Positions 3,751-12,625 of a stretch of DNA of 21,675 nt are shown one piece after another (the stretch's first letter is position 1; every line of letters begins with the position of its first letter). A program made the position numbers and the translations under genes. The DNA is from a virus. The notes beneath the pieces were generated by a model. It made no database searches, was not told where the DNA came from, and saw only the letters and a list, made by a program, of their open reading frames with translations. The stretch spans positions 1-21,675 of the IMG/VR virus record IMGVR_UViG_3300001533_002528. One strand, given 5' to 3'.

Positions 3751-4155
3751 ATGAAAAAATTGCCTGTTTTATTGCTTTTTTTAATGCTTGGCTGCGGGCC
3801 AGAAATTTTGATAGGCCCTATTATTAATGGTGTAATCTACTGGATGGAAGGAGAGGCACACAAATACTATGCCCACGAACCCGAAATCCTTTACCGTGCT
3901 ACTAAACGAGCATGCATAGAACTTAATCATTCTATAGATACAGATGAGCAGCACAAAAATGACTATTATATTGTAGCAGGAGGAAATAATCGATTCAAGA
4001 TAAATATTGAATGGGTAGAAAATGGAATTGCCGAAGTTAGAATTCGTATTGATTTTTGGGGAGATAAACCCTATGCAGAACTAATATATCAAAAAATAGA
4101 TGAACAACTAAGCGTAATCGAATTTGATGAACAAGGCAAACCAACAAGATATTAA
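3751..4155 (+). CDS. DUF3568-like lipoprotein, 134 aa
   Basis: The N-terminus MKKLPVLLLFLMLGCG is a type II signal peptide with lipobox LMLGC, so the mature protein would begin at Cys15 and be lipid-anchored to a host membrane. The mature part has the DUF3568 layout: a short Gly-rich start, then a region with LYRATKRACIEL, then strands ending in AEVRIRIDFWGDKPYAELIY. DUF3568 proteins are small bacterial lipoproteins of unknown function. AAGGGGAAAAAATT precedes the ATG and an AATATAGTA element lies at 3727-3735. Phage lipoproteins often act in superinfection exclusion, which is a possibility here but not shown. A strong terminator follows directly. Confidence 0.7.
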   Translation: MKKLPVLLLFLMLGCGPEILIGPIINGVIYWMEGEAHKYYAHEPEILYRATKRACIELNHSIDTDEQHKNDYYIVAGGNNRFKINIEWVENGIAEVRIRIDFWGDKPYAELIYQKIDEQLSVIEFDEQGKPTRY

Positions 4156-4156
4156 A

Positions 4157-4190
4157 CCAATCCCGCCGCAAGCGGCGGGATTGGGTTTTT
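4157..4190. terminator. Rho-independent terminator between convergent genes
   Basis: A 12-bp perfect stem, CCAATCCCGCCG pairing with CGGCGGGATTGG, closes a CAAG loop and is followed by TTTTT. It lies 2 bases after the lipoprotein stop and abuts the end of the convergent metalloprotease gene. It clearly serves the plus strand and may work weakly on the minus strand. Confidence 0.9.
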
Positions 4191-5629
4191 CATTCTATAA
4201 AAGTTCTAATTAATTTTCCTTTTTGAACCTCCCACATTTTGTCTTTCTCTGGTCCAACGGAATTATTTTTTTGAATCATTAAAGCGCAAAGTCTAGCGTC
4301 ATTTATAATATCTTTTATATTAGCTACATTTTCAAACACAAGATTTCCTTTTTTATCAAATTCATAATAGCTTTCATTTGCCACTTCGATTTCTAAATCA
4401 GCCAAATCATAGTCATTTATTGATAAATTAGAAACAAAACCTTCTGGAATATAATTTGATAATTTTATTGTTTTTTCTGGGGCGATTCGAACGCTTGTTC
4501 CATTTTCTGTGTGCTCAACGTGTTCTGCTGCAGATATAATATCTTGAATTTCTACATCAGTTTTAGAAAGTATTTTAATTTGAGGTTTCAAAATACGACG
4601 TTGTTTGAATACATTTTTCATAATTTTTTTATAGGGTGGTTCAGCGACAAGCAACATCGCTTGTGCTAAAGCTTGATGATAACGAGAGACACGTCCGGTA
4701 ACTTGCACAGCATGGCGAAGATATCTAAAGCTTTTATCACGAGCAATTCTTAAAGATTTAATTGATTTTGCGGTTTTATCTCCTTTTTCATATTCATAAA
4801 GTTCAACTAAGATAGAGTACCAAGTTCCTAGAAAGACTCTGCCATAGCTGTGACATTCTGAAGATAATTTGTTTTCGGGAGCATTTTTAGGAAGTTTGTT
4901 GGGTGGAGCGTACAAAAAATTGTTTACAGCATCTCTTAATGCTCCTGGCTTTCGACCGTCATGTCCTCCTGTCAAATGATAAATTGCATTCCCCATTTCT
5001 TCTGCTAAACGTGAAATGACGTTGGATTTTCTTAAATCGCCTTCTGTTTCTTTCAGGGCATATTCTAGGACTTCATCATATTGCATAAGATGGCAAATTG
5101 CCGTAATATCAGCATACGCCTCGTGAAACGCCCAAATTTCTGGTGCTTGTGTATTCCAAAAATCAGGTCTTTGCGCATCTAAAAGAGCATGTCCTAGTTC
5201 ATGTGCCACAATGTCTGAAGAATTTGCGGTATAGATTATTTTTTTAGTTTTAGGGTCTTGTCCAAAAAAGAAAACTAAATTTTGTCGATCATAGTAAGCA
5301 TTAAGACCTTGCTGTGCTTTAGGCAAAACATTCAAAGGTTTTTTTGAGGCCCAATTTGGAATGGGACGACCTGCTTTTTGAGTAACATATATGCCATTAG
5401 ATATAGTAATGTAGGAGTTATCAGACAATTCATTACCAGGTTTGCCCGTAAATCCTAAAACTCTAAAATCTAAATCAGTTTTAGGAGGCGTGATCTTTGT
5501 TCTTAACTCTGGCGTAGTTGGATCGTTGATTAAGTAATCAAATTTTCCTTCCCCTAAAGAAACAATGGGTTCATACGGTCTGCTTAAATCTTGCTTAAAA
5601 TATTCTCTAATTTTGTCAATAAACCACAT
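4190..5629 (-). CDS. Zinc metalloprotease with HELGH motif (gluzincin-like), 479 aa
   Basis: The zinc site is His143-Glu144-Leu-Gly-His147 (SDIVAHELGHALLD). FHEAYADI follows 23 residues later; its Glu170 fits the third ligand of gluzincins such as the thermolysin (M4) and M36 families. The stretch with HSYGRVFLGTWYSIL near residue 260 looks like the helical C-lobe of that fold. The residues after about 350 are not recognised. There is no signal peptide or membrane segment, so it may act in the cytoplasm or be carried in the virion. AAGGAGT lies 5 bases before the ATG. It is divergent to the channel gene at 5671 and shares a 41-base control region with it. The catalytic class is sure; the exact family is not. 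Confidence 0.82.
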   Translation of the reverse strand: MWFIDKIREYFKQDLSRPYEPIVSLGEGKFDYLINDPTTPELRTKITPPKTDLDFRVLGFTGKPGNELSDNSYITISNGIYVTQKAGRPIPNWASKKPLNVLPKAQQGLNAYYDRQNLVFFFGQDPKTKKIIYTANSSDIVAHELGHALLDAQRPDFWNTQAPEIWAFHEAYADITAICHLMQYDEVLEYALKETEGDLRKSNVISRLAEEMGNAIYHLTGGHDGRKPGALRDAVNNFLYAPPNKLPKNAPENKLSSECHSYGRVFLGTWYSILVELYEYEKGDKTAKSIKSLRIARDKSFRYLRHAVQVTGRVSRYHQALAQAMLLVAEPPYKKIMKNVFKQRRILKPQIKILSKTDVEIQDIISAAEHVEHTENGTSVRIAPEKTIKLSNYIPEGFVSNLSINDYDLADLEIEVANESYYEFDKKGNLVFENVANIKDIINDARLCALMIQKNNSVGPEKDKMWEVQKGKLIRTFIE

Positions 5630-5652: not shown

Positions 5653-5660
5653 CTATATAG
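5653..5660. promoter_or_regulatory. CTATATAG element between divergent genes
   Basis: An exact CTATATAG palindrome lies in the 41-base gap between the metalloprotease (ATG 5629) and mscL (ATG 5671). On the plus strand it runs into the ribosome binding site (TATAGGAG). On the minus strand it is 23 bases before the start codon. The position suggests a bidirectional promoter element. Confidence 0.4.
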
Positions 5661-5670
5661 GAGTAATAAT

Positions 5671-6162
5671 ATGGTTGGCGAGATAGCGCAACAAATTAAA
5701 AAAGAATTAGAAAAAGAAATCGAGGGATTAGTTGGCAAAAATGAAATAGAAGAATTCAAAAAATTTGCATTCAAAGGACACATGATTCAAATGGCCATTG
5801 CCTTTATATTAGGTGCATCTTTTAATTCCGTAGTAAAATCAATTTCTGAAAATATTATTATGCCAATAATAACCTTTGGACTTGATAAAACTGGTGACAA
5901 TTGGCGAGAAATCACCTGGACGCCTTTTGAGGGGTTGACATTAGAACTTGGAAAATTTTGCGGGGCATTTGTTGACTTTTTTTTAATTGCTTTAGTTCTT
6001 TATGTGCTATATGTAAAATTATTGCGACCATTTTGGAAAAGTGCTCCAAAAATAAAATGTATTGAAACTAAAAAATGTACTTTTTGCCAAAGTATTATTC
6101 ATTGGCAATGTGAACGCTGTCCTCATTGTACAACTTGGTTAGGAAAATTGATAGATGGCTAA
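5671..6162 (+). CDS. mscL: MscL-type large-conductance mechanosensitive channel with C-terminal zinc ribbon, 163 aa
   Basis: After a charged helix (residues 1-25), residues 28-67 match the MscL N-terminal signature: EFKKFAFKGHMIQMAIAFIL, then GASFNSVVKS and NIIMPII. TM1 spans about 38-57. A loop follows, then TM2 at about 98-118 (GAFVDFFLIALVLYVLYV). MscL forms a pentameric inner-membrane pore that opens under membrane tension and releases solutes. Instead of the usual C-terminal helix bundle, this protein ends in a zinc ribbon (C136-x2-C139 and C150-x2-C153, with C147 between). AGGAG precedes the ATG. The next gene overlaps it by 8 bases. The family assignment is firm; a role in lysis, osmotic control during infection or DNA entry is inference. 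Confidence 0.88.
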   Translation: MVGEIAQQIKKELEKEIEGLVGKNEIEEFKKFAFKGHMIQMAIAFILGASFNSVVKSISENIIMPIITFGLDKTGDNWREITWTPFEGLTLELGKFCGAFVDFFLIALVLYVLYVKLLRPFWKSAPKIKCIETKKCTFCQSIIHWQCERCPHCTTWLGKLIDG

Positions 6163-6772
6163 ATCTCCTGAACAATATGAAAAAGAAGTTGGCGAACAAC
6201 GACTTGTTGAGGCAACAAAGAAAGGATTAAATGGAAAAGACGGAAAACTGTCCGTTATTTTGAAAAATTTAGGTGAACCAATTATTCATCAAAGTGGTAT
6301 TTACACAGATCAAGATTTTGAAGATGTTTATAATTCTCAAGAATTGCGTGATAAAATTCCAATGCATATTGATAGAGATGAAGATCTTTTGATGATGCCA
6401 GGTAACTACGAAGATGATCCCATTTATGGCCCATGGATGAAAAATCCAGATATGCAATACATTAACCAATTTATAGTAGGATGGATTTTTAGTGGTTTAA
6501 ACCGTGGAATGCATTTAGAAATACAATATATGAAGCACAATAATACACTAACTTGTCACTATAAAGGCTACGAGGTTTTCAGAGAAGTAAGAGGGGAATT
6601 AAAGGGATATGCTCCATTAAAAGAGTGGGAAAATTGGATAGAAAAATTATTCCTGATTGCAAAGGAGAAAAAAGTTAAAAAACAGATTGTAAACGAACAA
6701 GAATATAACAAAACAAAAGAGCTAGAAAAATTATCTTGGTGGGAAAAATTCCGTTTGCGATGGGGACTTTAA
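6155..6772 (+). CDS. Hypothetical protein coupled to mscL, 205 aa
   Basis: I do not recognise this protein. It seems soluble: charged N-terminus, a central region (residues about 85-140) with several aromatic and hydrophobic stretches including YINQFIVGWIFSGLNRG, and a charged helical C-terminus ending WWEKFRLRWGL. Its ATG lies inside the end of mscL (8-base overlap), with AGGAAAA upstream, so the two genes are almost certainly co-translated and may work together. A hairpin terminator follows 2 bases after the stop. Confidence 0.7.
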   Translation: MAKSPEQYEKEVGEQRLVEATKKGLNGKDGKLSVILKNLGEPIIHQSGIYTDQDFEDVYNSQELRDKIPMHIDRDEDLLMMPGNYEDDPIYGPWMKNPDMQYINQFIVGWIFSGLNRGMHLEIQYMKHNNTLTCHYKGYEVFREVRGELKGYAPLKEWENWIEKLFLIAKEKKVKKQIVNEQEYNKTKELEKLSWWEKFRLRWGL

Positions 6773-9001: not shown

Positions 9002-9343
9002 TTAACAAAAAAACCGATTTTTTACAAGACTAGTTTTCTTCTTCTTCTTCTTCTTCTTCTTCTTCTTTTCTTTATTCCAAAATGCAGGTTCTTCCATGCC
9101 TTCTAACATACTAATTCCAAGACGATCATTTAAAACTCCATTAAGAAGGTGGTTTGCGCTGCGGACGTGTTCTGCCCAACGGACAACACTTATACAAGAT
9201 TCTTCTGAGTCTATATTACCCGTTAGGCAAGTTTCTAATATTTTACAGATTTCATCATCAGAAAGGGCAGCATATCTTTTTTCAGTTTCATTCCATTGAA
9301 GGTCATCATGCGGAATTAAAGAGCTAAGTTGATTAGGGGTCAT
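9002..9343 (-). CDS. Hypothetical protein with polylysine tract, 113 aa
   Basis: Residues 1-90 look like a small helical domain (SDDEICKILETCLTG, VVRWAEHVRSANHLLNGVLNDRLG). This is followed by a run of 11 lysines encoded by AAG repeats and a short tail ending RFFC. I do not recognise the domain. AGGAG lies 8 bases before the ATG, inside the end of the M28 peptidase gene, which it overlaps by 11 bases; the two are probably co-translated. The lysine run could bind DNA, and its length may vary by slippage. Confidence 0.6.
   Translation of the reverse strand: MTPNQLSSLIPHDDLQWNETEKRYAALSDDEICKILETCLTGNIDSEESCISVVRWAEHVRSANHLLNGVLNDRLGISMLEGMEEPAFWNKEKKKKKKKKKKKTSLVKNRFFC
9036..9065. repeat. (TTC)10 trinucleotide repeat coding for lysine
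   Basis: Ten uninterrupted TTC units on the plus strand read as AAG on the minus strand and encode most of the polylysine run of the gene at 9343. Confidence 0.8.
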
Positions 9344-10460
9344 AAATATTACTCCTATATGCTTCTCCTATACCTGTATTTTGGATAGGAAATGGGGTTC
9401 GATGGTCATCATGATCGTATTGCGGTAATATTTCCTCCCCATCCCAGAACCATACTGGTTGTGCAGTATCATTGGCAATTTTATATACCAATTCAAAGCC
9501 AAGGCGAGCAATATCACGAATGCCTTTATACGATCCTAATTGGTCAATTCTTTGTGGGGTGTCTTGTGGTGTGTGATAGGCGGAATGTATCCCTGTAAAA
9601 CACCAAGCAACAGGCACACCTTTATTTTTAAATGATTGATGGTCTGAACCTCCGCCTGTTCCAACCTTAAGAATTGAATTAACAAACGGATATTTATTTT
9701 TTAATTGTTGAACATATCTCTTTATGTTTGGCGAACTTTCAGTATATTTTACTTGTTTTTCTTCAGAAGAATTTAGGTAACCAATCATGTCAAAATTTAA
9801 CATAAAAACATGATTTTTAATATTGGGTTGTTCTTGCGGAAATATTGGATTATTACAATATAATTTGCTACCAATTAATCCCATTTCTTCGCAATTAAAA
9901 GCTATAAAAACCACTGTTTTTTTTGATGGTGGCAACATAGAAAATGCTTGTGCGATTTCAATAATAGCCGAAGTTCCACTGGCGTTGTCATCTGCTCCTG
10001 GACAAATGCCCCTGCGGGATTTTACATGATCCATGTGTGCCCCAACAACTACAATTTCATTTTTATGAGTTGTTCCATCTATCCAACCGATAATATTTGG
10101 TGGGGGATATGGTTTAGAATCTGGCCAAGGGATGTATTGTAATTGTGTTTTACATCCACAATCTTCAAACATTGCTTTAATCCAGTCAGCGGCATATTTA
10201 TTTCCTTGTGTGCCAGGAACTCGTCCTCCCCATTCTTGTGATGCTAACTTATAGACATGTGATCTACATTCCTCAGTTGTTATAGAATTAATTGCATCTT
10301 CATAGGTTTTAGTTGGTGGATTGTCTGGCGTAATTGGTTGCTGATATGGTTGTTGCCAATGTATTTCTTGTGGCTTTTCCCTAGAAATTTCAGCAATTAA
10401 AAACATTCCCCCGACAACAGCGAGGACAATAAGAACATATTCTAATTTGATCTGTTTCAT
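9333..10460 (-). CDS. Membrane-anchored M28 family zinc aminopeptidase, 375 aa
   Basis: Residues 5-24 are a hydrophobic N-terminal anchor, followed by a Pro/Gln-rich linker to about residue 50. The M28 metal site is complete: His142 in GAHMDH, Asp157 in GADDNASG, Glu191-Glu192 in FNCEEMG (catalytic base and ligand), Asp224 in NFDMIGY, and His296 in YHTPQDTP. Family members are co-catalytic two-zinc exopeptidases that release N-terminal amino acids. The anchor places the enzyme on the periplasmic or outer face of the host membrane. No strong ribosome binding site is seen; the ATG lies 43 bases after the stop of a 53-residue gene. It overlaps the next gene by 11 bases. The family is sure; its role for the phage is not known. 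Confidence 0.9.
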   Translation of the reverse strand: MKQIKLEYVLIVLAVVGGMFLIAEISREKPQEIHWQQPYQQPITPDNPPTKTYEDAINSITTEECRSHVYKLASQEWGGRVPGTQGNKYAADWIKAMFEDCGCKTQLQYIPWPDSKPYPPPNIIGWIDGTTHKNEIVVVGAHMDHVKSRRGICPGADDNASGTSAIIEIAQAFSMLPPSKKTVVFIAFNCEEMGLIGSKLYCNNPIFPQEQPNIKNHVFMLNFDMIGYLNSSEEKQVKYTESSPNIKRYVQQLKNKYPFVNSILKVGTGGGSDHQSFKNKGVPVAWCFTGIHSAYHTPQDTPQRIDQLGSYKGIRDIARLGFELVYKIANDTAQPVWFWDGEEILPQYDHDDHRTPFPIQNTGIGEAYRSNIYDP

Positions 10461-10729: not shown

Positions 10730-12625
10730 ATGGAACAATCACAAATATTTGAGGAACAATCAAAACCAAAAAGACCGAGCAATTTAGTATATCCCACTAT
10801 TCGATTTGAGGATTATTATAACCCACCTCCTAGATCGAAGGGAAGACGATTTTCTACAGTTCGTGAATTATCTGAGGATGATGAATTCAAAAATGTTTAT
10901 TCTCATTTTTACGAATTTACAAAATTCGAACTTGATATCCCTATCGGTGAAAAAATAGAAGATCAGGAAAATTTTTCACCTGAGCAACAAATAAAAGAAC
11001 TTATAAAATGTACTAATGATTTCTTTTATTGGTCGCACAGATATGTAAAAATTTTACACCCTGTACATGGAACAATTCCGTTTGTTTTATACAAATACCA
11101 AAGAAAGGTAATTAATAGATTTACCGAACATGGTTGGAATATGTTAAGTAAGTTCCGTCAAGGTGGATTAACCACAGTAGCGGTTCTTTGGGGATTGTGG
11201 AGATGTCTTTTTCAACAAGACCAACAAATTTATGTTTTATCGAAAACCGACCGTGAAGCATTGGCGGCGGGAGACATCGCCAAAAAGGCGATGGATAATT
11301 TCCCATCTTGGATGTATGACCAGGCGCAGGCTGACATCAGCAAACATGAAAAGAAATTTGGAGATACTGGTTCTAAAATTTCGTTTTATACTCCTGAGGC
11401 TGCTCGTGGTAAATCAGCAACCTTGCTAATTATTGACGAAGCGGCGTTTATTCCCGACATGTATGAACACTATAAGGCCATGTATCCTGTCATTTCTACT
11501 GGCGGGAACATCGCTGTGATCTCTACGGTTAACGGAATTGGCAATTGGTATTACGACACCTACAAGGAAGCCGAATCTGGAAGGAATTTTTTCAAAATCA
11601 TTGATTTGGATTACTGGGAACATCCAATTTATGCTAATCCTGAGTGGGCGAAGAAGACCAAAGCTAACATGTCGGAAAAGGCTTGGCAACAAGAAATTTT
11701 GCGTGACTTTCTTGGATCGGGCGAAACATATATTCCCACACGAATAATCGGACAATTAGATCGGTTCACGAGAAATAATGCTCCGATACGTACAGCTTTT
11801 GAAAAATATGAAAATAAAGGAAAAGAAAGTTCTCGTAAAGCCGATTGGGAAAGAGGAGCCTTATGGATATGGAAAGAACCAGCAGATGGGCATGAATATA
11901 TTGTTGCTGTGGATAGTGCTGAAGGTGTCGAAGGTGGTGATAATTCTTGTTTTCAAATTATAGATGTTGCCACTTTAGAACAAGTGGCAGAATTTTATAG
12001 TAATATTATCCCACCTCATATTTATGCACAAATTATTAACCAGATTGCCATTTATTATAATGTGGCAACGGTGGTTGTTGAATCAAATACGGTTGGTGGC
12101 GCGGTTTTAAGTAACTTGCAAAATGACTTGGCTTATGAAAACCTATATTTTGAACAAAGAAAAAAAGCCACTAGTCCTGGTGTAAAAATTGGACCCGCTA
12201 ACCGAGGTGTATATTTAGAAGCCTTACAACATCGATTGGTAAATGGCACTTTACGCATTAACAGTCGTAGATTTGTTCAGGAATTATCCACATTTATTTG
12301 GAGCCGACAAAAACGACGAGCAGAAGCTGAAAAAGGCAAACACGATGACGCCATCATGGCAATGGCTATTGGGCTGTTCATCCGTGATGAACGAATGCGA
12401 GGAATTCCTGTGGGGTCTGAAATACCAGATGAAATGGTCAAAGTCTTCAAGAGCGATACTTATGAAGAAATTAAACGAGAAATTCTTGAAGGACGACCAG
12501 AAGATTGGTTGTCAGAAGATAATTATGATCCAATTTCTGTAGAATCATCTGAAGAATTACTTCTGCCGACCTTTAATATACCAAAGAGAAAAAATGATGC
12601 CTTGCTTCGTGAATTTGGATGGTAA
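10730..12625 (+). CDS. terL: Terminase large subunit (T4 gp17-like), 631 aa
   Basis: This is the ATP-driven DNA-packaging motor with nuclease. The ATPase domain shows an atypical Walker A at 142-149 (FRQGGLTT), Walker B at 232-238 (LLIIDEA, followed by AFIPD), and coupling motif III at 264-269 (ISTVNG). The C-terminal RNase H-like nuclease has Asp395 in AVDSAEG, Glu451 in VVVESNT and Asp539/Asp540 in KHDDAIMAMA. The order and spacing match T4 gp17, although T4 has Lys where this Walker A has Leu148. GGAGAG precedes the ATG. The next gene starts just after its stop. No small terminase is seen next to it. Confidence 0.95.
   Translation: MEQSQIFEEQSKPKRPSNLVYPTIRFEDYYNPPPRSKGRRFSTVRELSEDDEFKNVYSHFYEFTKFELDIPIGEKIEDQENFSPEQQIKELIKCTNDFFYWSHRYVKILHPVHGTIPFVLYKYQRKVINRFTEHGWNMLSKFRQGGLTTVAVLWGLWRCLFQQDQQIYVLSKTDREALAAGDIAKKAMDNFPSWMYDQAQADISKHEKKFGDTGSKISFYTPEAARGKSATLLIIDEAAFIPDMYEHYKAMYPVISTGGNIAVISTVNGIGNWYYDTYKEAESGRNFFKIIDLDYWEHPIYANPEWAKKTKANMSEKAWQQEILRDFLGSGETYIPTRIIGQLDRFTRNNAPIRTAFEKYENKGKESSRKADWERGALWIWKEPADGHEYIVAVDSAEGVEGGDNSCFQIIDVATLEQVAEFYSNIIPPHIYAQIINQIAIYYNVATVVVESNTVGGAVLSNLQNDLAYENLYFEQRKKATSPGVKIGPANRGVYLEALQHRLVNGTLRINSRRFVQELSTFIWSRQKRRAEAEKGKHDDAIMAMAIGLFIRDERMRGIPVGSEIPDEMVKVFKSDTYEEIKREILEGRPEDWLSEDNYDPISVESSEELLLPTFNIPKRKNDALLREFGW

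Follow-up and report, generated by a model that had tools for sequence, protein, structure and literature searches.

MscL is the safety valve of bacteria, opening when the cell membrane is over-stretched. A gene of this type lies among virion genes in the window (the whole stretch of 21,675 nucleotides of viral DNA analysed here), raising a testable question: why should a virus that lyses its host require a pressure valve? The gene had been read in an earlier note on this DNA as a phage-encoded MscL, a rarity in phages, in which two CxxC pairs replace the usual C-terminal helix as part of a new zinc-ribbon fusion. The gene and the parts of its product are as follows.

5671..6162, + strand: mscL-like gene, 163 aa, ATG start, matching PF01741 and MscLs in the PDB
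5671..5745, + strand: N-terminal charged helical extension, residues 1-25 (alignment; model helix 2-21)
5746..6039, + strand: MscL core, residues 26-123, with S1, TM1, a short periplasmic loop and TM2 (Pfam, whole-record search, model)
6076..6129, + strand: zinc ribbon, Cys136-Cys153, CxxC-x10-CxxC, its four cysteines invariant in phage and ribbon-bearing bacterial MscLs

Exploring the product of this ORF, which is preceded by a ribosome-binding GGAG seven bases 5' of the ATG, we found the motifs EEFKKFAFKGHM, GASFN and NIIMP. The profile search proposed in the earlier note matched PF01741 to residues 26-123 with an E-value of 9.6e-22 and 78.1 bits, far over the gathering cut-off of 27.4, and the Pfam scan of the ORF detected no other family above its cut-off. 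Among PDB sequences, solved MscLs matched best, with E-values of 6e-14 downwards. The motifs and both sets of matches bear out the MscL identity and indicate, at the level of sequence, that the ORF encodes a divergent MscL-family protein with two predicted membrane helices. The NCBI MscL models matched more weakly than Pfam and none reached its equivalog cut-off; because TIGR00220, the NCBI mscL equivalog, gave 53.5 bits against a cut-off of 71, we filed the protein under the Pfam family and not as an mscL equivalog, and since this cut-off was missed gating may have drifted. The TM1 pore helix and its hydrophobic gate are retained, the gate residues of the window protein being Met41 and Phe45, which we take to be the counterparts of the Leu19/Val23 constriction of E. 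coli MscL. Other phage MscLs carry LAVGV at the gate position of the alignment, presumably the E. coli gate residues. The N-terminal charged extension is present in the subgroup of the window protein and absent from some phage MscLs.

To model the protein we used alignments of two depths: 6 sequences gave a poor model (pLDDT 53), and 53 sequences yielded a monomer with a mean pLDDT of 84. The model shows a leading helix (residues 2-21), S1 and TM1 helices, a short periplasmic hairpin, TM2 (residues 93-122) and a C-terminal beta-hairpin ribbon, the region of residues 131-160 having a pLDDT of about 87-93. It thus contains the N-terminal helix, TM1, periplasmic loop and TM2 of the MscL fold. MscLs were the top fold matches in the PDB (archaeal 4y7k, E 2e-4; 2oar, E 3e-3), with modest TM-scores of 0.36-0.39, and small zinc fingers ranked below them with non-significant E-values. 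Classic MscLs (E. coli, 2oar, Methanosarcina 4y7k) share with the window protein S1, a NIIMP-type TM1, TM2 and the fold; unlike the window protein, which carries a ribbon in its place and scores under the equivalog cut-off, they end in a C-terminal helix.

The ribbon is spaced Cys136-x2-Cys139-x10-Cys150-x2-Cys153, and the C-terminus reads KCTFCQSIIHWQCERCPHCTTWL. The four cysteines show no variation among 14 phage homologues, nor across 48 aligned ribbon MscLs from phages and bacteria, a conservation far beyond chance. These invariant cysteines and the modelled hairpin match the definition of a zinc ribbon, in which beta-hairpins bear two CxxC knuckles separated by about 10 residues. The LLxEIRDLL C-terminal helix was sought in the window protein and is absent, the Pfam match ending at profile position 97 of 123, so the replacement of this helix by CxxC pairs holds. 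Bacterial MscLs that end in a ribbon lack this helix too and are nevertheless accepted by Pfam. Zn_ribbon_3, DZR or UPF0547 matched some of the aligned relatives; none of the three matched the window protein. PHROG 25692, which is not labelled MscL in PHROGs v4, has the same core and ribbon, spans both and matches all 14 of the 14 phage MscL members.

The supposed novelty of the fusion did not survive comparison with bacteria. The same C-terminal ribbon occurs at the same place in 33 of the best 80 bacterial genome matches (Clostridia, Myxococcota; e.g. Eubacterium callanderi and Tyzzerella sp. An114), a proportion that should not be read as the frequency across bacteria, since the 80 were those most like the query. 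These bacterial proteins (L010-L034, L052) share the core followed by a CPxCxxxIxxxAxRCPxCTSxL-type ribbon, lack LLxEIRDLL as the window protein does and are about 27-37% identical to it. They differ from the phage MscLs, which have a shorter periplasmic loop before TM2 and a phage-specific TGxxWR motif; members of the window subgroup also bear the N-terminal charged helix.

Host DNA carrying mscL in its normal context had been named as what would overturn the reading of the gene as phage-borne. The source viral record, of 29,976 bp and probably a fragment, holds terminase, portal and capsid-type genes, of which the window contains the following two.

10730..12625, + strand: terminase large subunit (TerL), Terminase_6N/6C, 50% identity to LR756511.1
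13579..16296, + strand: T4-type portal with intein-like insertions (Portal_T4, E 1e-64; intein models)

Reading of sequence and order in the rest of the record revealed ORFs resembling a prohead protease, a scaffold and a major capsid protein. The nearest named terminase is that of the uncultured phage LR756511.1 (595,163 bp), with identities of 50% for TerL, 52% for the portal and 46% for orf590. Its module order is the same, with homologues of the portal, orf590, orf198, orf111, the metallopeptidase-like gene and orf205 in that order, placing the window in the lineage of this phage. Homologous synteny extends to many viral contigs of up to 527 kb. The gene mscL sits among virion genes, and the viral module, the viral relatives and the 527-kb contig rule out host DNA; the gene is phage-borne, as the earlier note had it. 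The carriers probably belong to a huge-phage lineage whose terminases are of T4 type and in which mscL is accessory; the window record itself measures 29,976 bp, and the longest contig bearing this mscL has 527 kb, beyond the >200 kb mark for huge phages. As separate observations, the portal has two intein-like insertions, the first of which the portal of the 595-kb relative (L094:23575-26148) seems to share, and past the capsid-type gene the same record continues with ORFs that read as endonuclease-like and one that reads as TnpB-like (L004:3366-7610).

The gene occupies a defined slot, flanked by two genes and preceded by a palindromic box.

4190..5629, - strand: metallopeptidase-like gene (HELGH), divergent, on the other flank of the slot (weak Peptidase_M4 matches, conserved HExGH)
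5653..5660, no strand: CTATATAG palindromic box between the metallopeptidase-like gene and mscL, in their shared spacer (intergenic CTATATA enrichment in the window)
6155..6772, + strand: orf205, conserved partner gene (synteny in related contigs)

The start of mscL lies 41 bp from the divergent metallopeptidase-like gene. At its other end, within the region of virion genes, it shares 8 bp with orf205, an overlap that suggests translational coupling. A family match was sought for orf205 and none was found; a C-terminal RxRWG(L/I)-type motif is conserved in most of its relatives. In LR756511.1 a gap of 44 bp separates the metallopeptidase-like gene from orf205, the two being adjacent and divergent with no mscL between them, and a search of that whole record for MscL found none. 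Peptidase-like genes recur in the window, namely the HExGH metallopeptidase-like gene (4190-5629), an M28 aminopeptidase (9333-10460) and a trypsin-like gene (3-920); all are conserved in related contigs, and the latter two have apparent membrane or signal segments at the start. In one viral contig (L093:11383-12624) two adjacent genes resemble, by reading, an ExbB/TolQ and ExbD/TolR pair.

The sequence CTATATA is concentrated between genes: 8 of its 10 matches in the window are intergenic, counting both strands, where 0.6 would be expected, and one match precedes TerL. Boxes of the form CTATATA(G) lie at 1949, 5653, 8550, 10698 and 19824, concentrated in intergenic spacers, and are possibly a late promoter element of this phage lineage. 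We considered the CTATATAG box as a late promoter of mscL and dropped it, as the box abuts the mscL Shine-Dalgarno; with its end at that site (5660), it is a better fit for the divergent gene and gives little information on the timing of mscL. A strong 12-pair hairpin with T runs (4157-4184), likely a bidirectional terminator, separates the convergent genes 3751-4155 (+) and 4190-5629 (-).

Scans of viral contigs revealed at least 25 viral records with a related ribbon MscL, the window included, and all 25 keep the four ribbon cysteines. In most carriers, including the largest, a 527,112-bp contig, mscL sits in the one slot between the metallopeptidase-like gene and orf205. In five records (L192, L194, L199, L200, L201), neither of the flanking genes lies within 4 kb of the ribbon MscL. 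The slot can be judged in 51 terminase-bearing loci; mscL occupies it in 13 and is absent from it in 38, indicating that the gene is dispensable. A 381-kb relative (L179) encodes a classic MscL with the C-terminal helix and without the ribbon; its frame (L179:1132-1917) opens with a long VVVELV repeat, possibly non-coding. General bacterial MscL patterns detected 14 viral loci among 2.9 million viral contigs, 4 of the 14 belonging to the ribbon family; this count is a lower bound because the patterns are short, and it agrees with the claimed rarity of MscL in phages. Among named phage records with MscL matches, the Acinetobacter one is bacterial DNA according to its annotated neighbours, and two entries listed as 'phage' turned out to be contigs of Salmonella genomes. 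MscL matches also occur in putative phage records from Listeria, Enterococcus and faeces that lack annotation.

MscL in viruses has been reported before. Giant viruses encode MscL-like genes (PMC6163359), and like the window gene those of Cafeteria roenbergensis virus, Terrestrivirus and Tetraselmis virus are virus-encoded; the hosts, however, are eukaryotic, the structural match to the window protein is weak, and the Cafeteria and Tetraselmis virus proteins, of about 101 aa, are too short for core and ribbon. MscL was also reported in Caudoviricetes contigs from estuaries, rising with salinity (PMC13288924), and the accessible part of that source mentions no ribbon, huge-phage lineage or locus. 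The open-licence literature yielded nothing relevant on jumbo or huge phages with mechanosensitive channels, nor on MscL with a zinc ribbon. The phage MscLs are a distinct branch of a known family in an uncommon setting.

To follow the history of the gene, we compared trees of MscL and of the terminase. In the MscL tree, built from core columns with the ribbon excluded and including 13 phage sequences, the phage sequences formed one clade, separate from bacterial MscLs, with support of 100 and a long stem; the phylogeny that the earlier note had called for thus sets them apart, and their bacterial sister group was left unplaced because the columns are few. In the terminase tree the carriers do not all group together: 3 or more changes are required, and a single clade of carriers was rejected by the AU test, so mscL must have been lost from some phages or passed between them. 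The best fit to these data is that the gene was gained once, long ago, and later lost in places, or that it moved between related phages. In all informative pairs pN was far under pS (e.g. 0.02 vs 0.49), indicating that mscL is maintained under purifying selection, and dN/dS was 0.03-0.29 in the measurable pairs. Together, the data indicate that the phage MscL family is conserved and probably of one origin.

What the channel does for the phage is most likely, by analogy with MscL, to act as a working tension-gated valve that would stop the infected cell bursting early or aid its survival of osmotic shock. The more specific proposal, that it spares the infected cell from lysis before assembly of the huge phage is done, we hold at a probability of roughly 0.52. 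From the data above we infer a pentamer, zinc binding, tension gating, the timing and the benefit to the phage. The protein would form a homopentamer in the host inner membrane, with TM1 lining the pore and a hydrophobic constriction at Met41/Phe45. In classic MscL a helix bundle at the cytoplasmic end stabilises the mouth; small zinc ribbons may cap or stabilise the cytoplasmic mouth in its place. As membrane tension nears the lytic limit the channel would open and release small solutes, and this release would prevent early bursting of a cell with disturbed solute balance or a weakening envelope, keeping it whole until the very large phage is fully assembled. Other benefits, for example assistance with release, would also be compatible with this sequence evidence.

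One such benefit, which we consider unlikely, is a holin-like function or death trigger, in which late opening would collapse ion gradients or pass small effectors. In its favour, the gene encodes a membrane channel and lies near virion genes; however, Pfam finds no endolysin or other lysis gene beside mscL in the genes scanned, and the gate residues are still hydrophobic and MscL-like, not leaky. MscL lets through solutes and small proteins only, and its established role is to prevent lysis. Equally improbable is that the gene is cargo for host fitness that tops up or replaces host MscL where salinity changes, unlinked to the timing of assembly. The patchy presence of mscL within the lineage favours it, as does the rise of Caudoviricetes MscL with salinity in estuaries (PMC13288924), whereas the deep, separate phage clade with its long stem and the fixed slot overlapping a phage gene argue against repeated recent uptake from hosts. 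Least probable is a channel whose opening threshold is set by zinc, redox state or binding of orf205, since, although the ribbon cysteines are as invariant as the core and orf205 shares the 8-bp overlap and synteny, orf205 homologues flank the same slot in phages without mscL and so have a role of their own, some phages hold a ribbon MscL away from orf205, and bacterial ribbon MscLs, as far as seen, have no orf205 context.

Beyond the preferred reading of a valve that keeps the infected cell whole, the data point to a class of ribbon-ended bacterial MscLs, of which the open literature searched held no description; in this class the C-terminal domain could determine the threshold for gating or sense metal or redox conditions. 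If the phage channel were regulated by its ribbon or by orf205, huge phages would use MscL as a timed permeability switch and not as a passive safety valve.
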